Positions 6,034 through 60,333 of a DNA stretch of 64,000 nt are shown here, one piece after another (within the stretch, counting starts at the first letter, position 1; each line of letters opens with the position of its first letter). The notes beneath the pieces are model-generated. The model was not told the DNA's origin, searched no databases, and saw only the letters and a program-made list of their open reading frames with translations. Location: NCBI RefSeq assembly GCF_006715055.1, contig NZ_VFMN01000001.1, positions 3,410,001-3,474,000 on the forward strand. The letters are read 5' to 3'. Source of the stretch: Lapillicoccus jejuensis (GTDB lineage: Bacteria; Actinomycetota; Actinomycetes; Actinomycetales; Dermatophilaceae). The position numbers were made by a program, and so were the translations under genes.

Positions 6034-6056
6034 CTGTCGGCGCCGTGGCCTAGGCT
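6034..6056 (+). promoter_or_regulatory. polA promoter, PafBC-like (CTGTCGGCG-N8-TAGGCT), leaderless
   Basis: CTGTCGGCG at 6034-6042, 8 bases, then TAGGCT at 6051-6056 and the GTG start 7 bases later. It differs from the copies at uvrA, uvrB and uvrC by C for T in the GTG element, so regulation by the same factor is likely but weaker in evidence. Confidence 0.6.
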
Positions 6057-6063
6057 CCTGGCC

Positions 6064-8766
6064 GTGGCTCGACTGCTCCTGCTGGATGGACACTCGCTGG
6101 CGTACCGCGCGTTCTACGCGCTGCCGGCGGAGAACTTCGCGACGAAGACGGGGCAGACGACCAACGCGGTCTTCGGCTTCACGTCGATGCTCATCAACAT
6201 GCTGCGCGACGAGGAGCCGACGCACGTGGCGGTCGCCTTCGACCGGTCGCGGCAGACGTTCCGGCTGGAGGAGTACGCGGAGTACAAGGCCGGTCGCGCG
6301 CAGACGCCGTCGGAGTTCTCCGGGCAGATCCCGCTCATGCGCGAGGTCCTCGACGCCCTGCGGATCCGGCACGTCGAGGCCGACGGGTTCGAGGCCGACG
6401 ACATCATCGCCACGCTGACGACGGCGGGGGAGGCGCAGGGCCTCGAGGTCCTCATCTGCTCCGGCGACCGCGACGCGTTCCAGCTGGTGAGCGACAAGGT
6501 GACGCTGCTCTACCCGGTGCGCGGGGTGTCCGAGGTGTGGCGGATGACGCCGGCCGCGGTGACCGAGCGGTACGGCGTGCCCCCGGAGCGCTACAGCGAC
6601 CTGGCCGCGCTGGTCGGGGAGTCCTCGGACAACCTGCCGGGGGTGCCGGGGGTGGGGCCGAAGACGGCGGCCAAGTGGATCACCCAGTACGGCGACCTGC
6701 CGGGCCTGGTCGCGCACGTCGACGAGGTCAAGGGCAAGGCGGGTCAGTCGCTGCGCGACCACCTCGACGCGGTGCTGCGCAACCGGCGGCTCAACCAGCT
6801 GGTGCGCGACGTGCCGCTGGGCATCGAGGTCGACGAGCTGGAGCGGCAGGCGTGGGACCGCGAGCAGGTCCACCAGGTCTTCGACGGCCTGGAGTTCCGG
6901 GTCCTGCGCGAGCGGCTGTTCGCGACGCTGGAGTCGGCGGTGCCGGAGGCGGAGTCCGGGTTCGACGTCCTCGGCGAGGTCCTCGAGGCCGGTGACGTGC
7001 CGGGCTGGCTGACGGAGCACGCGAAGCCGGGGGAGCGGGCCGGGGTCTCGGTCGTGGGCCGGTGGGCGCGCGGCACGGGGGACGTGGCGGCGCTGGCGCT
7101 GGCCACGGCGGACGGGCACGCGGCCTACGTCGACGTGACCCGGCTCGACGAGCCGGGGGAGCAGGCGGTCGCGGCGTGGCTGGCCGACCCGGACCGGCCC
7201 AAGGCGCTGCACGACGCGAAGGGACCGCTGCAGGCGCTGACCGCGCGCGGGTGGACGCTGGGCGGCCTGACGAGCGACACGGCGCTGGCGGCCTACCTCG
7301 TGCGCCCCGACCAGCGCTCCTACGACCTGGAGGACCTCGCGCTGCGGATGCTCAAGCGCGAGCTGCGCAACGACACCGAGGTCGCCGGCGACACCGTCCA
7401 GGGCACCCTCGACTTCGACGGCGAGGAGGACGGCGAGCAGGCGCAGGCCCGCGCGTCGATGGTCGTGGCGCGGGCGGTGCTCGAGCTGGCCGACGCGCTC
7501 GACGGCGAGCTGGCGACGCGGGCGGCGGCGGGGCTGCTGCGCGACGTCGAGCTGCCGCTGGTGCACGTGCTGGCGCGGATGGAGCGGGCGGGGATCGCGG
7601 TCGACGTGCCGGCGCTGGAGGCGCTGGACGCCGACTTCGCCCAGCAGGTGTCCCGGGCGCAGCAGGCCGCGTGGGACGCGATCGGTGACGACACGGTCAA
7701 CCTCGGCTCGCCCAAGCAGCTGCAGGAGGTGCTCTTCGAGCGGCTGTCGCTGCCGAAGACCAAGCGGACCAAGACGGGGTACACGACCGACGCGGACGCG
7801 CTGGGCGAGCTGGGCCGCAAGGTCGACCACCCGTTCCTCATGGGGGTGCTGGCCTTCCGCGACGCGTCGCGGCTCAAGGTCACCGTCGAGGGGCTGCTGA
7901 AGTCCGTGGCCGAGGACGAGCGGGTGCACACGACGTACCTGCAGACCATCGCGGCGACCGGCCGGCTCAGCTCGACCGACCCCAACCTGCAGAACGTGCC
8001 GATCCGCACGGAGGAGGGGCGCCGGATCCGCGGGATGTTCGTCGTCGGTCGCGGGCCGGGGGAGCCGTTCGAGTCGCTGATGTCGGTCGACTACAGCCAG
8101 ATCGAGATGCGGGTCATGGCCCACCTGTCGAAGGACGCGGGGCTCATCGAGGCGTTCCGCACCGGGGAGGACCTGCACAGCTTCGTCGGGGCGCGGGTCT
8201 TCGGCGTCGGGATCGACGAGGTCACCCTCGCCCAGCGCTCCAAGGTCAAGGCGATGTCGTACGGCCTCGCCTACGGGCTGTCGGCGTACGGGCTGTCGAA
8301 GCAGCTGACGATCTCGACCGGCGAGGCCAAGGAGCTGATGGACGAGTACTTCCAGCGGTTCGGCGGGGTGCGGGACTACCTGCGCGAGCTCGTCGTCGAG
8401 GCCCGCGCGACGGGCTACACCGCGACGATGCTCGGCCGGCGCCGCTACCTGCCCGACCTCACCTCGGACAACCGGCAGCGCCGCGAGATGGCCGAGCGGA
8501 TGGCGCTCAACGCCCCGATCCAGGGCTCCGCGGCGGACATCATGAAGGTGGCCATGCTCGGGGTCGAGCGCCGGCTGCAGGAGTCCGGCGCCCGCTCGCG
8601 GATGCTGCTCCAGGTCCACGACGAGCTCGTCCTCGAGATCGCCCCGGGCGAGCGCGAGGACGTCGAGGCGCTCGTGCGCCACGAGATGGGCCACGCCGTC
8701 GAGATGGACGTCCCCCTCGACGTCAGCGTCGGGGTCGGCCGCTCCTGGCACGACGCCGCCCACTGA
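6064..8766 (+). CDS. polA: DNA polymerase I
   Basis: This 900-residue enzyme fills gaps after nucleotide excision repair and replaces Okazaki primers. The N-terminal 5' nuclease (about 1-300) has LLLDGHSLAYRAFYALP and the acidic cluster FEADDIIATL, then helix-hairpin-helix VPGVGPKTAAKW. The middle domain keeps the exonuclease fold position but lacks the metal-binding D-x-E signature, so proofreading is probably absent, as in other actinobacterial Pol I. Polymerase motif A contains D676 (VDYSQIEMR), motif B is RSKVKAMSYGLAYG, and motif C is VHDE with H852/D853. The GTG start follows a leaderless -10 box. Confidence 0.97.
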   Translation: MARLLLLDGHSLAYRAFYALPAENFATKTGQTTNAVFGFTSMLINMLRDEEPTHVAVAFDRSRQTFRLEEYAEYKAGRAQTPSEFSGQIPLMREVLDALRIRHVEADGFEADDIIATLTTAGEAQGLEVLICSGDRDAFQLVSDKVTLLYPVRGVSEVWRMTPAAVTERYGVPPERYSDLAALVGESSDNLPGVPGVGPKTAAKWITQYGDLPGLVAHVDEVKGKAGQSLRDHLDAVLRNRRLNQLVRDVPLGIEVDELERQAWDREQVHQVFDGLEFRVLRERLFATLESAVPEAESGFDVLGEVLEAGDVPGWLTEHAKPGERAGVSVVGRWARGTGDVAALALATADGHAAYVDVTRLDEPGEQAVAAWLADPDRPKALHDAKGPLQALTARGWTLGGLTSDTALAAYLVRPDQRSYDLEDLALRMLKRELRNDTEVAGDTVQGTLDFDGEEDGEQAQARASMVVARAVLELADALDGELATRAAAGLLRDVELPLVHVLARMERAGIAVDVPALEALDADFAQQVSRAQQAAWDAIGDDTVNLGSPKQLQEVLFERLSLPKTKRTKTGYTTDADALGELGRKVDHPFLMGVLAFRDASRLKVTVEGLLKSVAEDERVHTTYLQTIAATGRLSSTDPNLQNVPIRTEEGRRIRGMFVVGRGPGEPFESLMSVDYSQIEMRVMAHLSKDAGLIEAFRTGEDLHSFVGARVFGVGIDEVTLAQRSKVKAMSYGLAYGLSAYGLSKQLTISTGEAKELMDEYFQRFGGVRDYLRELVVEARATGYTATMLGRRRYLPDLTSDNRQRREMAERMALNAPIQGSAADIMKVAMLGVERRLQESGARSRMLLQVHDELVLEIAPGEREDVEALVRHEMGHAVEMDVPLDVSVGVGRSWHDAAH

Positions 8767-15275: not shown

Positions 15276-15298
15276 TTGTCGGTGGTCGGCCTTACGGT
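15276..15298 (+). promoter_or_regulatory. uvrB promoter, PafBC type (TTGTCGGTG-N8-TACGGT), leaderless
   Basis: TTGTCGGTG at 15276-15284, 8 bases, TACGGT at 15293-15298, then 6 bases to the ATG. This is an exact fit to the published mycobacterial RecA-independent DNA-damage consensus TTGTCRGTG-N8-TANNNT. Confidence 0.8.
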
Positions 15299-15304
15299 GG
15301 GGAC

Positions 15305-17440
15305 ATGCGTCCGACAACCGACATCAAGCGAACCGTGGCCCCGTTCCGCGTGGAGTCGGAGTTCTCCCCGAGCGGTGACCAGCCGAGCGCCATCGCGGAG
15401 CTCGCGCGACGGGTGAAGGACGGCGAGGAGGACATCGTCCTGCTGGGCGCCACCGGCACCGGCAAGTCGGCGACGACCGCCTGGCTCATCGAGCAGGTGC
15501 AGCGCCCCACGCTCATCATGGCGCCCAACAAGACGCTGGCCGCCCAGCTGGCCAACGAGTTCCGCGAGCTGCTGCCCAACAACGCCGTCGAGTACTTCGT
15601 CAGCTACTACGACTACTACCAGCCCGAGGCGTACATCCCGCAGACGGACACCTACATCGAGAAGGACTCCTCGATCAACGAGGAGGTCGAGCGGCTGCGG
15701 CACAGCGCGACGAACTCGCTGCTGACCCGCCGCGACGTCGTCGTCGTCGCCTCCGTCTCGTGCATCTACGGCCTGGGCACCCCTCAGGAGTACGTCGACC
15801 GCATGGTGCGGATGCGGGTCGGCGACCGGCTCGACCGCGACGAGCTGCTGCGCCGGTTCGTCCAGATGCAGTACACCCGCAACGACCTCGCCTTCACCCG
15901 CGGCACGTTCCGGGTGCGGGGCGACACCGTCGAGATCATCCCGGTCTACGAGGAGCACGCCGTCCGGATCGAGCTGTTCGGCGACGAGGTCGAGCGGATC
16001 TACACGCTGCACCCGGTCAGCGGCGAGATCATCCGCGAGGAGGAGGAGATGTACGTCTTCCCCGCCACGCACTACGTCGCCGGCCCGGAGCGGATGGAGC
16101 GGGCGATCAAGGGCATCGAGCTCGAGCTCGCCGACCGCCTCTCCGAGCTGGAGCGGCAGGGCAAGCTGCTCGAGGCGCAGCGGCTGCGGATGCGCACGAC
16201 GTACGACATCGAGATGATGCGCCAGGTCGGCTCGTGCAGCGGCATCGAGAACTACTCGCGACACATCGACGGTCGCGCCCCCGGGTCCGCCCCCAACTGC
16301 CTGCTCGACTACTTCCCCGAGGACTTCCTGCTCGTCATCGACGAGTCGCACCAGACCGTGCCGCAGATCGGCGCGATGTACGAGGGCGACATGTCCCGCA
16401 AGCGGATGCTCGTCGACCACGGCTTCCGGCTGCCCAGCGCGACCGACAACCGGCCGCTGAAGTGGGAGGAGTTCCTCGAGCGGATCGGGCAGACGGTCTA
16501 CCTGTCGGCGACGCCGGGCGACTACGAGCTGGCCAAGTCCGGCGCCCCGGTGGAGCAGATCATCCGCCCGACCGGGCTCGTCGACCCCGAGATCGTGCTC
16601 AAGCCGACCAAGGGCCAGATCGACGACCTGCTGCACGAGATCTCGACGCGCACCGAGCGCAACGAGCGCGTCCTCGTCACGACCCTGACGAAGAAGATGG
16701 CCGAGGACCTCACCGACTACCTCCTCGACAAGGGGGTGCGGGTGCGCTACCTGCACTCCGACATCGACACGCTGCGCCGCGTCGAGCTGCTGCGCGAGCT
16801 GCGGATGGGCGAGTTCGACGTCCTCGTCGGCATCAACCTGCTGCGCGAGGGTCTCGACCTGCCCGAGGTGTCGCTGGTGAGCATCCTCGACGCCGACAAG
16901 GAGGGGTTCCTGCGCTCCACGCGATCGCTCATCCAGACCATCGGCCGCGCGGCGCGCAACGTCAGCGGCCAGGTCCACATGTACGCCGACAAGGTCACGC
17001 CGTCGATGCAGCAGGCGCTCGACGAGACCGACCGCCGCCGCGAGAAGCAGATCGCCTACAACCTCGAGCGGGGCATCGACCCGATGCCGCTGCGCAAGAA
17101 GATCGCCGACATCACCGACCTGCTCGCGCGCGAGGACGCGGACACCGAGGCGCTGCTCGGCAGCGGGCGCGCCCAGTCGCGCGGCAAGGGCGGCCGCAAG
17201 AACGGCGGCGCGCCGTCCGCGGGCGGGCGAGGGGCGATGGCGGCCGACGTCGCGACGAGCGGGTCCGGCGGCGACGCCGGCTCGATGGCCGCGGCCGACC
17301 TCGCCTCGCTCATCCAGGAGCTCACCGCGCAGATGCACCAGGCGGCGGCCGAGCTGCGGTTCGAGCTCGCGGCCCGGCTGCGCGACGAGCTGGGCGACCT
17401 CAAGAAGGAGCTCCGCCAGATGCAGCGCGCCACCTCCTGA
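15305..17440 (+). CDS. uvrB: UvrABC system protein B
   Basis: This 711-residue helicase-like protein verifies DNA damage and recruits UvrC. The P-loop is GATGTGKS near residue 44, and the beta-hairpin that inserts between strands contains [20 protein letters not shown]. Helicase motifs include [18 protein letters not shown] and [10 protein letters not shown]. The C-terminal UVR domain that binds UvrC is at about 670-707. A glycine/alanine-rich linker of about 45 residues before it makes the protein slightly long. The next gene begins one base after the stop. Confidence 0.97.
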
Positions 17441-17441
17441 C

Positions 17442-18782
17442 GTGAGCACCGCCTCGGTCGTGAGCACCCTCCCGCTGCGCGCCGACCGCGACTTCCGTCG
17501 CTACTGGTGGGCGCGGGTCGTGTCGGTGACCGGCACGGTGGTCACCACGGTCGCGCTGCCGGTGCTGGTCTACCGGCTGACCGGGTCCCCCGGGCTCACC
17601 GCGCTGACGACGACGCTCGAGGCGCTGCCCTACCTGCTTGTCGGGCTCGTCGCCGGGGCGGTCGCCGACCGGGTCGACCGGCGCCGGCTGATGGTCGCCG
17701 CCGACCTGGTCAACGTGGTCGTCGTCGGGTCCGTGCCCCTGGCGTGGTTCCTCGGGCACCTCACCGTGCCGCACGTCCTCGTGACGGCCTTCCTCGTCCA
17801 GACGGTGTTCACGTTCTACGACGGCGCGAACTTCGGCGCGCTGCCGGTGCTCGTCGGCACCGCCCGGGTCGCCGACGCCAACGCCGCGGTGTGGAGCGTC
17901 GGCGGGGTCGTCGACCTCGTCGGGCCGGCCGCCGCCGGGGCGGTGCTCGCGGTGCTGCACCCGGCCGAGCTGCTCGTCGTCGACGCGGCGTCGTACGCCG
18001 TCTCCGCGGTGCTCGTGGCCCGGATCGGTCGTCCGCTCTCGCGGACCCGGGAGCGACGGGGCGGCCGGGCCGCCGTCGTGGGGGAGGTCCGCGAGGGGCT
18101 GGGGTTCCTCTGGCGGCACACGGGGGTGCGGACCCTGACCTTCATGGGGACCCTGCAGTCCGCGGCCGGCGGCGGGTTCATGGCCCTCTTCGTCCCGTGG
18201 TCGGACCGGGTGCTCGGGATCGGGACGTCCGGGTGGCGGTTCGGGCTGGTCTACAGCGTGTGGGGGATCGGTGGTGTCGCCGCGGCGACGGCCAGCGCCC
18301 GGCTCCAGCGACGGCTCGGGGCGACGCGGGTGTGCCTGCTCGCGATGCCGCTGTCCGCGGCGGCGGGCATCGCGGCCACCCTCACCCGCTCGTGGGTCGT
18401 CGCGGCGCTCGTCCTCGTCGCCTGGGGGGTGGCCTACCAGCTCGTCCTCGTCGCGAGCATCACCTACCGGCAGACGGTGACCCCGGAGCACCTGCTCAGC
18501 CGCGTCAACACGACCGCGCGGATGCTCGCCTGGGGCGTCGGCTGGTCGCTGGGGGCGGTGGCCGCCGGCGCGCTGGCCGGCGGGCTGGGCGTCCAGCGCA
18601 CGATGCTCGTCCTCGCCTGCGCGAGCGTCCTCGCGGCCCTGCTGGGCTGGTTGTCCCCCTTGCGCTCGGGCGACCCGCACGACCGTGCCGAGCGGGCCGG
18701 GCGGGCGGACGGCTCGCCGGACGACCATCTGGTGGGCGCCCCCGACGGGTCGCCGCGGGGGGCTGAGAGCATGGACGCGTGA
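17442..18782 (+). CDS. MFS transporter
   Basis: This 446-residue protein has about twelve hydrophobic helices and the MFS loop 2-3 signature GAVADRVDRRRLM. It resembles the enterobactin-exporter-like (MFS_3) group; the substrate is unknown. It starts with GTG one base after the uvrB stop and overlaps the next start by 4 bases (GTGA). It is thus cotranscribed with uvrB and would share the damage-inducible promoter. The last 40 residues are hydrophilic. Confidence 0.85.
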   Translation: MSTASVVSTLPLRADRDFRRYWWARVVSVTGTVVTTVALPVLVYRLTGSPGLTALTTTLEALPYLLVGLVAGAVADRVDRRRLMVAADLVNVVVVGSVPLAWFLGHLTVPHVLVTAFLVQTVFTFYDGANFGALPVLVGTARVADANAAVWSVGGVVDLVGPAAAGAVLAVLHPAELLVVDAASYAVSAVLVARIGRPLSRTRERRGGRAAVVGEVREGLGFLWRHTGVRTLTFMGTLQSAAGGGFMALFVPWSDRVLGIGTSGWRFGLVYSVWGIGGVAAATASARLQRRLGATRVCLLAMPLSAAAGIAATLTRSWVVAALVLVAWGVAYQLVLVASITYRQTVTPEHLLSRVNTTARMLAWGVGWSLGAVAAGALAGGLGVQRTMLVLACASVLAALLGWLSPLRSGDPHDRAERAGRADGSPDDHLVGAPDGSPRGAESMDA

Positions 18783-19975
18783 AGGCGCTCCTGCTCGAGA
18801 AGATCCACCCCGACGCCCGCGCGACCCTCGAGGCCTCCGGCTACGAGGTCCACGAGCACCCGGGAGCGATGGACGAGGCCGAGCTCGTGGCGGCGCTGCC
18901 GGGCGTGCACCTGCTCGGCATCCGCTCCGGCACCCGGGTCACCCCGGCGGCCCTCGACGCCGGGACCGACCTGCTCGCGGTCGGGGCGTTCTGCATCGGC
19001 ACCAACCAGATCGACCTCGAGGCGACGACCGCGCACGGGGTGGCCGCCTTCAACGCGCCGTTCTCCAACACCCGCAGCGTCGTCGAGCTGGCCATCGCCG
19101 AGATGATCGCGCTCACCCGGCGGCTGACCGAGAAGAGCGACGCGCTGCACCGCGGCCTGTGGGACAAGTCCGCCAAGGGCGCGCACGAGATGCGCGGCCG
19201 CACACTCGGCATCATCGGCTACGGCAACATCGGCAGCCAGCTCTCCGTCCTCGCCGAGGCGCTCGGGATGGGCGTCGTCTACGTCGACGGCGACGACAAG
19301 CTGCCGATGGGCAACGCCCGGGCGCTCCCGTCGCTCGAGGAGCTGCTCCAGGTCGCCGACGTCGTGAGCATCCACGTGGACGGGCGGATCGGCAACGCCG
19401 GGCTGTTCGGGGCCAAGGAGTTCGCGGCGATGAAGCCCGGCTCGGTCTTCCTCAACCTCTCGCGCGGGTTCGTCGTCGACACGGCCGCGCTCGCCGACGC
19501 CGTGCGCAGCGGCCACCTCGCCGGCGCCGCCCTCGACGTCTTCCCCGTCGAGCCCAAGGCGCAGGGCGACGGCTTCGAGTCCGAGCTGCGCGGGCTGCCC
19601 AACGTCATCCTCACCCCGCACGTCGGCGGGTCGACCGAGGAGGCGCAGCGCGACATCGGCCGGTTCGTCTCGGGCAAGCTGCGCGACTACGTCGAGCGCG
19701 GCAGCACCTCGCTGAGCGTCAACCTGCCGACGGCGCTGCTCGACGGCCCGCCGTCGGCGCACCGGCTCGCGCTGCTGCACAGCAACGTCCCCGGCGTCCT
19801 CGCCCGCGTCAACCAGCTGCTCTCCGAGCACGACGTCAACATCGAGGGCCAGGTGCTGGCCACCCGCGGCGAGCTCGGCTACGTCGTCACCGACATCGCC
19901 GCCGCCCCGTCCCCCGAGGCCGTCACCGCCCTCGAGGCCATGGCCGAGACGGTCCGCCTGCGCCGCCTGGGCTGA
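18779..19975 (+). CDS. serA: D-3-phosphoglycerate dehydrogenase, E. coli SerA type
   Basis: This 398-residue enzyme oxidises 3-phosphoglycerate, the first step of serine synthesis. It has the D-2-hydroxyacid dehydrogenase fold: NAD motif GIIGYGNIGSQ, catalytic arginine in LNLSRGFVV, and catalytic histidine in LTPHVGGSTEEAQ. A C-terminal ACT domain (about 325-398) suggests feedback inhibition by serine. It is the short E. coli-like form, without the extra domain of the roughly 530-residue mycobacterial SerA. Because of the 4-base overlap with the MFS gene, expression is tied to the uvrB operon. Confidence 0.92.
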   Translation: MKALLLEKIHPDARATLEASGYEVHEHPGAMDEAELVAALPGVHLLGIRSGTRVTPAALDAGTDLLAVGAFCIGTNQIDLEATTAHGVAAFNAPFSNTRSVVELAIAEMIALTRRLTEKSDALHRGLWDKSAKGAHEMRGRTLGIIGYGNIGSQLSVLAEALGMGVVYVDGDDKLPMGNARALPSLEELLQVADVVSIHVDGRIGNAGLFGAKEFAAMKPGSVFLNLSRGFVVDTAALADAVRSGHLAGAALDVFPVEPKAQGDGFESELRGLPNVILTPHVGGSTEEAQRDIGRFVSGKLRDYVERGSTSLSVNLPTALLDGPPSAHRLALLHSNVPGVLARVNQLLSEHDVNIEGQVLATRGELGYVVTDIAAAPSPEAVTALEAMAETVRLRRLG

Positions 19976-30935: not shown

Positions 30936-30958
30936 CTGTCGGTGGGCCCACCTAAGGT
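30936..30958 (+). promoter_or_regulatory. uvrA promoter, PafBC type (CTGTCGGTG-N8-TAAGGT), leaderless
   Basis: CTGTCGGTG at 30936-30944, 8 bases, TAAGGT at 30953-30958, 6 bases, GTG 30965. Spacing is identical to uvrB and uvrC. Confidence 0.8.
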
Positions 30959-30964
30959 TGAGGG

Positions 30965-34102
<3,138 letters not shown>

Positions 34103-40710: not shown

Positions 40711-40744
40711 CGCGCGACCGCCCGGGGCCGCCCCCGGGGCAGCC

Positions 40745-40777
40745 CCGGGTCCGCCCCGGGTCCGCCCCGGGTCCGCC
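40745..40777 (+). repeat. 11-bp tandem repeat x3 upstream of uvrC
   Basis: CCGGGTCCGCC is repeated exactly three times, flanked by CCCCGGGG-type palindromes. It lies between the Rieske stop and the uvrC promoter and could fold as a terminator. Confidence 0.75.
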
Positions 40778-40795
40778 CCGGGGCGCCCCGCCGGC

Positions 40796-40818
40796 CTGTC
40801 GGTGGGGCGACCTAGGGT
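40796..40818 (+). promoter_or_regulatory. uvrC promoter, PafBC type (CTGTCGGTG-N8-TAGGGT), leaderless
   Basis: CTGTCGGTG at 40796-40804, 8 bases, TAGGGT at 40813-40818, 6 bases, GTG 40825. It matches uvrA in 9 of 9 upstream-element bases. Confidence 0.8.
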
Positions 40819-40824
40819 TGGACG

Positions 40825-42873
40825 GTGGCCGACCCGTCGACGTACCGCCCCAAGCCGGGCGAGATCCCTACCGACCCGGGCGTCTACCGCTTCCGCGACA
40901 AGGACGGCCGCGTCATCTACGTCGGCAAGGCCAAGTCGCTGCGGCCGCGGCTGTCGTCGTACTTCCAGGACATCACCGCGCTGCACCCGCGCACCGCGAC
41001 GATGGTGCGCACCGGCGCCAGCGTCGAGTGGACCGTCGTCGGGACCGAGGTCGAGGCCCTCCAGCTGGAGTACAGCTGGATCAAGGAGTTCGACCCCCGT
41101 TTCAACGTCAAGTACCGCGACGACAAGTCGTACCCGTTCCTCGCCGTGACGATGGGGGAGGAGTACCCGCGCGCCCAGGTCATGCGCGGCGCGAAGCGGC
41201 GCGGCACCCGCTACTTCGGGCCGTTCTCGCACGCCTGGGCCATCCGCGAGACCCTCGACCTGCTGCTGCGCCCCTTCCCGGTGCGCACCTGCAGCGGCGG
41301 GGTCTTCAAGCGGGCCAGCATGAGCGGTCGCCCCTGCCTGCTGGGCTACATCGACAAGTGCTCCGCGCCCTGCGTCGGCCGCGTCTCCGCCGAGGAGCAC
41401 CGGGCGATCGCCGAGGACTTCTGCGACTTCATGGCCGGCAACACGACGAAGTTCGTCAAGCGGCTCGAGCGGCGGATGAAGGAGGCCTCGGACGAGCTGG
41501 AGTTCGAGCAGGCGGCACGGCTGCGCGACGACATCGGCGCGCTCGAGAAGGCGCTGGAGAAGAACGCCGTCGTCCTCGGGGACGCCACCGACGCCGACGT
41601 CTTCGCCCTGGCCGACGACGAGCTCGAGGCCGCCGTCCAGGTGTTCTTCGTCCGCGGCGGCCGGATCCGCGGGCAGCGCGGCTGGGTGGTGGAGAAGGAG
41701 AGCGAGGACCTCCCCGAGCTCGTCGGCCACCTCCTCCAGCAGGTGTACGGCGACCCGTCCGAGGGCACCACGGACGCCGTCCCCCGCGAGGTGCTCGTCC
41801 CCGTGCTGCCGGCCGACTCCGACAGCGTCCAGGAGTGGCTGACCCGGCTGCGCGGCGCCAACGTCGACCTGCGCGTGCCGCAGCGCGGCGACAAGAGGGC
41901 GCTGGCCGAGACCGTCCGCCGCAACGCCGAGCAGTCCCTGGCCCGGCACAAGGTCACCCGGGCGGGCGACCTCACCGCCCGCAGCGTCGCGCTCCAGGAG
42001 CTGCAGGAGGCGCTCGACCTGCCCGAGGCGCCGCTGCGGGTCGAGTGCTTCGACGTCAGCCACGTCCAGGGCACCAACGTCGTCGCGTCGATGGTCGTCT
42101 TCGAGGACGGGCTGGCCCGCAAGGCGGAGTACCGCCGCTTCATCGTCCGCGGGGCGACGTCCGGGGGCGACGACGGCACCCCACCGGTCGTCGACGACAC
42201 GGCGGCCATGCACGAGGTGCTGACCCGCCGCTTCCTGCGCTACCTCGACGAGCGCGACAGGGCGACCGACGTCGAGGTCGGCGACGACGGCGCGGCCGAC
42301 GAGCGGGCGGGCGGCGTCGAGGAGGTCGGCGGGCCGCGGGCCAGCGGGCCGATCGACGAGGAGACCGGCCGTCCGCGCCGGTTCGCCTACCCGCCCAACC
42401 TCGTCGTCGTCGACGGTGGCCTGCCGCAGGTCAACGCCGCCCAGCGGGCCCTGGCCGACCTCGGCATCGACGACGTCGCCGTCGTGGGGCTGGCCAAGCG
42501 CCTGGAGGAGGTGTGGGTGCCCGGCCAGGACTACCCGGTCATCCTGCCGCGCACCTCCGAGGGCCTCTACCTGCTGCAGCGGGTGCGCGACGAGGCGCAC
42601 CGCTTCGCCATCACCTTCCACCGCCAGCGCCGCAGCAAGGCGATGACCGTCTCCGCCCTCGACGGCATCCCGGGGCTGGGCGAGACGCGGCGCAAGGCGC
42701 TGCTCAAGGCCTTCGGGTCGGTCAAGCGGCTGCGGACGGCGACCGTCGAGGAGGTCGAGGCCGTCCCCGGCATCGGGCCGACCCTGGCCGCCACCGTCGT
42801 CGAGCGGCTGCACGCCGACGAGGCGACCCGCGTCCCGGCCGTCAACCTCACGACGGGCGAGGTGCTCGACTGA
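40825..42873 (+). CDS. uvrC: UvrABC system protein C
   Basis: This 682-residue nuclease makes both incisions in excision repair. It has an N-terminal GIY-YIG domain ([19 protein letters not shown]), a UVR domain ([19 protein letters not shown]), an RNase H-like domain with FDVSHVQGT and [10 protein letters not shown], and C-terminal helix-hairpin-helix pairs ([13 protein letters not shown]). A Gly/Asp-rich insert of about 40 residues near 485-520 lengthens it relative to E. coli. It heads a uvrC-rapZ-yvcK-whiA series, although rapZ also has its own -10 box. Confidence 0.97.
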
Positions 42874-45918: not shown

Positions 45919-46071
45919 CGAATCGGATTCCTGCCACTCGGCTCCCGTCACGACCCGAGCCGAGCGGACCGAATCCGATTCGCGGAGGTCGGCTCGAGCC
46001 GACACGGATCGGGGTCCTGCCACTCGGCTCCCGTCACGACCCGAGCCGAGCGGACCGAATCCCATTCGCGG
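45919..46071. repeat. 57-bp direct repeat x2, each a large imperfect hairpin
   Basis: Bases 45929-45985 and 46015-46071 differ at one position out of 57 and lie 86 bases apart. Copy 1 with its flank forms a nested hairpin: outer arms CGAATCGGATTC (45919-45930) and GAATCCGATTCG (45971-45982), inner arms CTCGGCTC (45937-45944) and GAGCCGAG (45957-45964). Copy 2 has lost its left outer arm. It resembles a REP/BIME-like interspersed element. Confidence 0.85.
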
Positions 46072-46177
46072 GGGCTGGCTCGGGCTCCGGGTGCGGGGGA
46101 GGGGTACGGCGCCGACGGGACGTCGTACGGCGTCCCGCGGGCCCGCCCACCGGCTGGACCGGCGTCAGGCGGTGTGA

Positions 46178-60129: not shown

Positions 60130-60147
60130 GTCGGGCCGGCGCGGCGC

Positions 60148-60333
60148 TGACATCCATCAATCGTTGGATGTCAGCAGACCGCCCTGCACACGTGTTGCTG
60201 AAGTCCATCAATTGTTGGATGTGAGCGGACCGCCCTGCACACGTGTTGCTGAAGTCCATCAATTGTTGGATGTCAGCGGACCGCCCTGCACACGTGCTGC
60301 TGAAGTCCATCAATTGTTGGATGTCAGCAGACC
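60148..60333. repeat. 51-bp tandem repeat (3 full and 1 partial copies) with internal dyads
   Basis: Copies start at 60153, 60204, 60255 and 60306, exactly 51 bases apart, with 1-3 differences each. Each begins TCCATCAATTGTTGGA, a near-palindrome centred on CAATTG, and includes ACACGTGT. The first copy has perfect 9-base arms TGACATCCA/TGGATGTCA. The unit is about 55% GC, far below the surroundings. The array fills the 214-base gap between the convergent ctaB and ctaA. Confidence 0.95.

Follow-up and report, generated by a model that had tools for sequence, protein, structure and literature searches.

The excision nuclease genes uvrA, uvrB and uvrC lie at three positions in a 64-kb window (the whole stretch of DNA analysed here, C1:3410001-3474000 of a 4.58-Mb single-contig genome), and a reading of the sequence alone had proposed that they share one DNA-damage promoter with identical spacing. 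The analysis asked which promoter class these genes belong to, which regulator may act on them and how far the same arrangement extends in the genome and among its relatives. The promoter used for comparison is the RecA-NDp/PafBC promoter of mycobacteria, given as TTGTCRGTG-N8-TANNNT in the passages of PMC5656591 and PMC8223512 that cite Gamulin 2004 and Muller 2018.

The shared element at uvrA, uvrB and uvrC

Direct reading of the window places TGTCGGTG-N8-TANNGT-N6 followed by the start codon at uvrB (15277), uvrA (30937) and uvrC (40797). The identities of UvrB, UvrA and UvrC were assigned with NCBIfam curated equivalog models over their cut-offs. The features are as follows:

15276-15304, + strand: putative PafBC-type promoter of uvrB; -26 element TTGTCGGTG at 15276-15284, N8, -10 TACGGT at 15293-15298, N6, ATG at 15305
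15305-17440, + strand: uvrB (PRK05298.1 and TIGR00631, over cut-off)
30936-30964, + strand: putative PafBC-type promoter of uvrA; CTGTCGGTG at 30936-30944, N8, -10 TAAGGT at 30953-30958, N6, GTG at 30965
30965-34102, + strand: uvrA (PRK00349.1 and TIGR00630, over cut-off)
40796-40824, + strand: putative PafBC-type promoter of uvrC; CTGTCGGTG at 40796-40804, N8, -10 TAGGGT at 40813-40818, N6, GTG at 40825
40825-42873, + strand: uvrC (PRK00558.1-5, over cut-off)

The TTGTCRGTG -26 element is exact at uvrB, and exact except for the first T at uvrA and uvrC, and the 8-nt spacer to a TANNNT -10 is present at all three genes. The pattern TGTCGGTG-N8-TANNGT has exactly three matches on both strands of the 64 kb, while 100 dinucleotide shuffles of the window gave a mean of 0.00 and a maximum of 0; the identity of motif and spacing that had been claimed is exact. 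A chance origin is rejected on the basis of these shuffles and of the genome controls, which gave 0 for both the strict and the relaxed patterns. Copying of one locus, which the sequence-only reading had also discounted, is rejected as both the genes and the spacers differ. At uvrA, GTG 30965 is the sole in-frame start 5' of the conserved UvrA N-terminus, and the 6-nt spacing there is thus independent of the choice of start codon. No TTGACA-like hexamer is present 17 bp 5' of the -10 at any of the three uvr genes (agggcg, ggaccc and gccggc are found there), and a sigma-A -35/-10 promoter at the uvr genes is rejected by spacing.

Three tandem repeats were also noted in the window. A GC-rich 11-bp repeat (6.4 copies, 40721-40790) lies directly 5' of the uvrC promoter, a 51-bp repeat (3.7 copies, 94% matches, 60146-60333) carries the near-palindrome TCCATCAATTGTTGGA in each copy and an 86-bp repeat (1.9 copies, 92% matches) spans 45922-46082.

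Three further genes of the window are relevant, namely polA, with an element that was absent from the earlier list of the same window, and the two genes downstream of uvrB:

6035-6063, + strand: putative relaxed PafBC-type promoter of polA; TGTCGGCG at 6035-6042, N8, -10 TAGGCT at 6051-6056, N7, GTG; genome C1:3416035-3416066
6064-8766, + strand: polA, DNA polymerase I (PRK05755.1 and TIGR00593, over cut-off)
17442-18782, + strand: MFS transporter, possible read-through from uvrB, 1 nt after the uvrB stop
18779-19975, + strand: phosphoglycerate dehydrogenase (serA), possible read-through, 4-nt overlap with the MFS gene

The MFS gene and serA had been suggested to join the regulon by read-through from uvrB. 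Such read-through is plausible from the 1-nt gap and the 4-nt overlap, rather than from conservation: in 27 class-wide relatives neither gene was found beside uvrB within about 1.5 kb, and the two genes are rejected as conserved operon partners of uvrB.

Distribution of the element in the genome

The strict pattern TGTCGGTG-N8-TANNNT has 26 exact sites in the genome as against 0 for the reversed control pattern; at 12 of them precisely 6 nt separate the -10 from a start codon. The genes 3' of the strict sites, called by reading frame and composition and by Pfam/NCBIfam, include the repair genes uvrA, uvrB, uvrC, mfd, recA, recC, sbcD and a DEDD exonuclease with a GIY-YIG domain, together with six DUF222 genes, two ABC transporters, an EmrB-type MFS pump, TelA, an F420-type oxidoreductase, an acyltransferase and a glyoxalase-like protein; a few sites have no clear gene. 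The relaxed pattern TGTCNG-N10-TANNNT-N6/7-RTG has 29 sites (control 0) and adds polA, radA, recR, a RecQ-family helicase (recQ), a LigD-type polymerase, a RecB-like PD-(D/E)XK nuclease and dop, as well as genes without a repair link. Of these 29 leaderless sites, 18 belong to repair genes, DUF222 genes or dop, and a fair share of the sites genome-wide precede genes of no known repair role.

Pooling of the strict and relaxed sets gave 43 sites with 14 repair genes. The DUF222 genes were left out of this count, as several of the paralogs have near-identical promoters and copying of one locus applies to them. The enrichment of repair genes corresponds to a hypergeometric p of about 2e-16 to 3e-13, for an assumed baseline of 60-100 repair genes of about 4200, and together with the 26 sites against 0 it bears out the expectation that the motif is commoner at repair genes than at random. 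The proposal that all excision nuclease genes form one PafBC regulon is too narrow, since recA, recC, mfd, polA, sbcD, recQ, recR and radA carry it as well. At 39 of the 43 sites TGTC is preceded by C or G; the positions that the search patterns themselves prescribe are uninformative in this comparison.

The DUF222 genes are split between two kinds of upstream sequence. Six (one of the DUF222 set has an HNH domain) lie behind PafBC-type promoters whose -10 is 6 nt from the start, and perfect LexA-type boxes are found near the starts of three others. Elsewhere, two PafBC-type elements stand back to back, about 75 bp apart (C1:4055677-4055795), one facing the DEDD/GIY-YIG nuclease gene and the other a divergent ORF.

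Distribution of the element among relatives

Conservation was examined in a class-wide sample of 30 genomes, one per family, in which uvrA relatives were found with a 250-aa N-terminal query. At uvrB, TGTC-N12-TANNNT is present in 23 of 28 genomes, and 22 of the 23 have 6-8 nt between the -10 and the start. At uvrA it is present in 20 of 28 genomes at varied distances from the start, commonly 36-60 nt, and hence this genome, with its predicted leaderless uvrA, departs from the common pattern of the class. At uvrC the TGTC element is found in 5 of 27 class-wide genomes and in 41 of 80 named relatives, the best of which is Intrasporangium (78%). When the 113 uvr promoters of relatives with a -10 at 6-7 nt were considered, TGTC lay exactly 16 nt 5' of the -10 in 68, while the remaining offsets between 4 and 40 accounted for only 11 occurrences in total. 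The uvrC promoters of Streptomyces fit TGTC-N12-TANNNT-N7-ATG in 12 of 13 cases as against 2 in 65,000 shuffles, these being related sequences and not 12 independent events; an initial search in S. venezuelae did not find the PafBC motif (PMC9380542).

PafB is nearly universal in the sample (28 of 30 genomes), with exceptions to its association with the motif in both directions. Two genomes (G004 and G025) have PafB and lack the TGTC element at uvrB, while one without a PafB match (G029) keeps TGTCGG-N10-TACCCT at uvrA and lacks the element at uvrB and uvrC.

The candidate regulator, the alternatives and known systems

The sequence-only reading had named PafBC as the activator, and both of its subunits are encoded in the genome. 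Among five WYL matches, two adjacent ones are pafB (218 bits to the PafB chain of 9fnd) and pafC (212 bits to the fused 6sj9 and 193 bits to the PafC of 7p5x, with PF19187 HTH_PafC), the others being three further WYL-domain genes. The pair sits in the Pup-proteasome locus, 3' of dop and a PafA-like ORF and 5' of a TatC-like ORF, the PafA-like (N-terminus) and TatC-like ORFs having been named by eye. The segment RMFERDK-ELR-LGIPL of the N-terminal DNA-binding part of PafB is kept in most genomes of the class.

The dop gene of this locus carries TGTCGGAG-N8-TAGGGT 7 nt before its ATG (C1:3676132-3676163). A feedback between PafBC and the Pup-proteasome through this element is possible.

The presence of pafB and pafC, the genome-wide enrichment of repair genes and the lack of LexA boxes support the original interpretation, and the element at uvrA, uvrB and uvrC is very probably a DNA-damage promoter of the PafBC-dependent (RecA-NDp) class. 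Counting against this reading are the inexact match between PafB and motif across genomes, the low share of uvrC genes with TGTC in the class-wide sample and the sites before genes of no known repair role. In M. smegmatis the PafBC regulon already includes UvrABC, and the motif is known beyond mycobacteria (PMC8223512). PafBC activated by single-stranded DNA takes up a position between promoter DNA and domain 4 of sigma-A, with PafB reading the -26 element (PMC11804915). By this mechanism, damage would generate single-stranded DNA that activates the WYL-domain heterodimer PafBC; PafB would read the -26 element TGTCGGTG while PafBC bridges to sigma-A domain 4, and the housekeeping RNA polymerase would then initiate at a promoter that has a -10 and lacks a -35. 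With exactly 6 nt separating the -10 from the start codon, the mRNA of the three genes should begin at or next to that codon and be leaderless. PafBC binding, the start sites and damage induction at these genes are what we infer from the sequence.

Recognition of the element by some other activator of this promoter class, such as ClgR or another WYL regulator of this genome, is considered very unlikely. A passage of PMC5656591 cites a report of ClgR recognising the mycobacterial recA P1 region, and the three further WYL-domain genes and the imperfect correlation between motif and PafB across genomes would also suit such an activator. However, the action of PafBC at this motif is backed by the M. 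smegmatis regulon and by structural data (PMC8223512, PMC11804915), and PafB and PafC here are the WYL pair of the Pup locus and match PafBC of known structure, with a DNA-binding segment that is conserved. It is also very unlikely that the element represents a promoter type common to leaderless genes in general, of the extended -10 class or with an alternative sigma factor, rather than a damage-specific one. Several sites precede non-repair genes (glyoxalase-like, alpha/beta hydrolases, thymidylate kinase, DUF3099), and many relatives retain a -10 at 6-7 nt in the uvrC promoter without the TGTC element; against this, the composition of the 18 sites among the 29 leaderless ones favours damage specificity, and TGTC stands at a constant 16 nt from the -10, like the -26 element of PafBC promoters, a distance that does not fit -35/-10 spacing. 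That the uvr genes are ordinary LexA/SOS genes is extremely unlikely: LexA is encoded and LexA boxes lie near lexA, recA and several DUF222 genes, but no box of the TCGAAC-N4-GTTCGA type with up to 2 mismatches occurs from -300 to +50 at uvrA, uvrB, uvrC or polA; the absence claimed for the three uvr genes holds within these limits, and their control by LexA is rejected.

For the PafBC-dependent promoter, it is well supported from sequence that the uvr genes here use a known system and not a new one, as all the sequence features defining the class are present. The leaderless geometry, which many relatives retain at uvrB and uvrC, and the presence of the element in Streptomyces are less well documented. 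In much of the class Actinomycetes, including Streptomyces, a relaxed PafBC promoter may be locked 6-7 nt before the start of uvrB and uvrC and deliver the damage response as leaderless mRNA, with dop in the same regulon here closing a feedback loop; this generalisation is put forward tentatively, as somewhat short of probable. Translation initiation on leaderless messages differs from that on messages with a Shine-Dalgarno leader, and leaderless delivery could matter under damage for this reason. The leaderless lock at uvrB and uvrC, the Streptomyces promoters and dop are worth following. The analysis traces a damage pathway known from mycobacteria into a further lineage of actinobacteria, with a concrete list of genes, and provides a more precise search rule (a -10 at 6-7 nt from the start, with TGTC 16 nt ahead of that -10), which may help decide on a working PafBC response in Streptomyces and others, a question left by PMC9380542.

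Among known systems, the LexA/SOS regulon of actinobacteria is likewise damage-responsive and has recA in common, but differs in that uvrA, uvrB and uvrC here lack a LexA box. DriD of Caulobacter, as described in a passage of PMC12340889, is similarly a WYL-domain activator triggered by single-stranded DNA, although it is another protein in another organism. The closest likeness is to the mycobacterial RecA-NDp system, in the -26 sequence, the 8-bp spacer and the -10, in the gene classes (uvrABC, recA, recBCD) and in the position of pafBC in the Pup-proteasome locus. The two also agree at recA, which here has a PafBC element plus a one-mismatch LexA box and in mycobacteria is under the dual control of a PafBC element and LexA (PMC8223512). 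In contrast to the mycobacterial promoter, the first T of TTGTC is rarely kept here (2 of 43 sites), a relaxed TGTCGG core occurs at additional repair genes, the distance between -10 and start is fixed at 6-7 nt for most repair-gene sites (leaderless) and dop carries the element.
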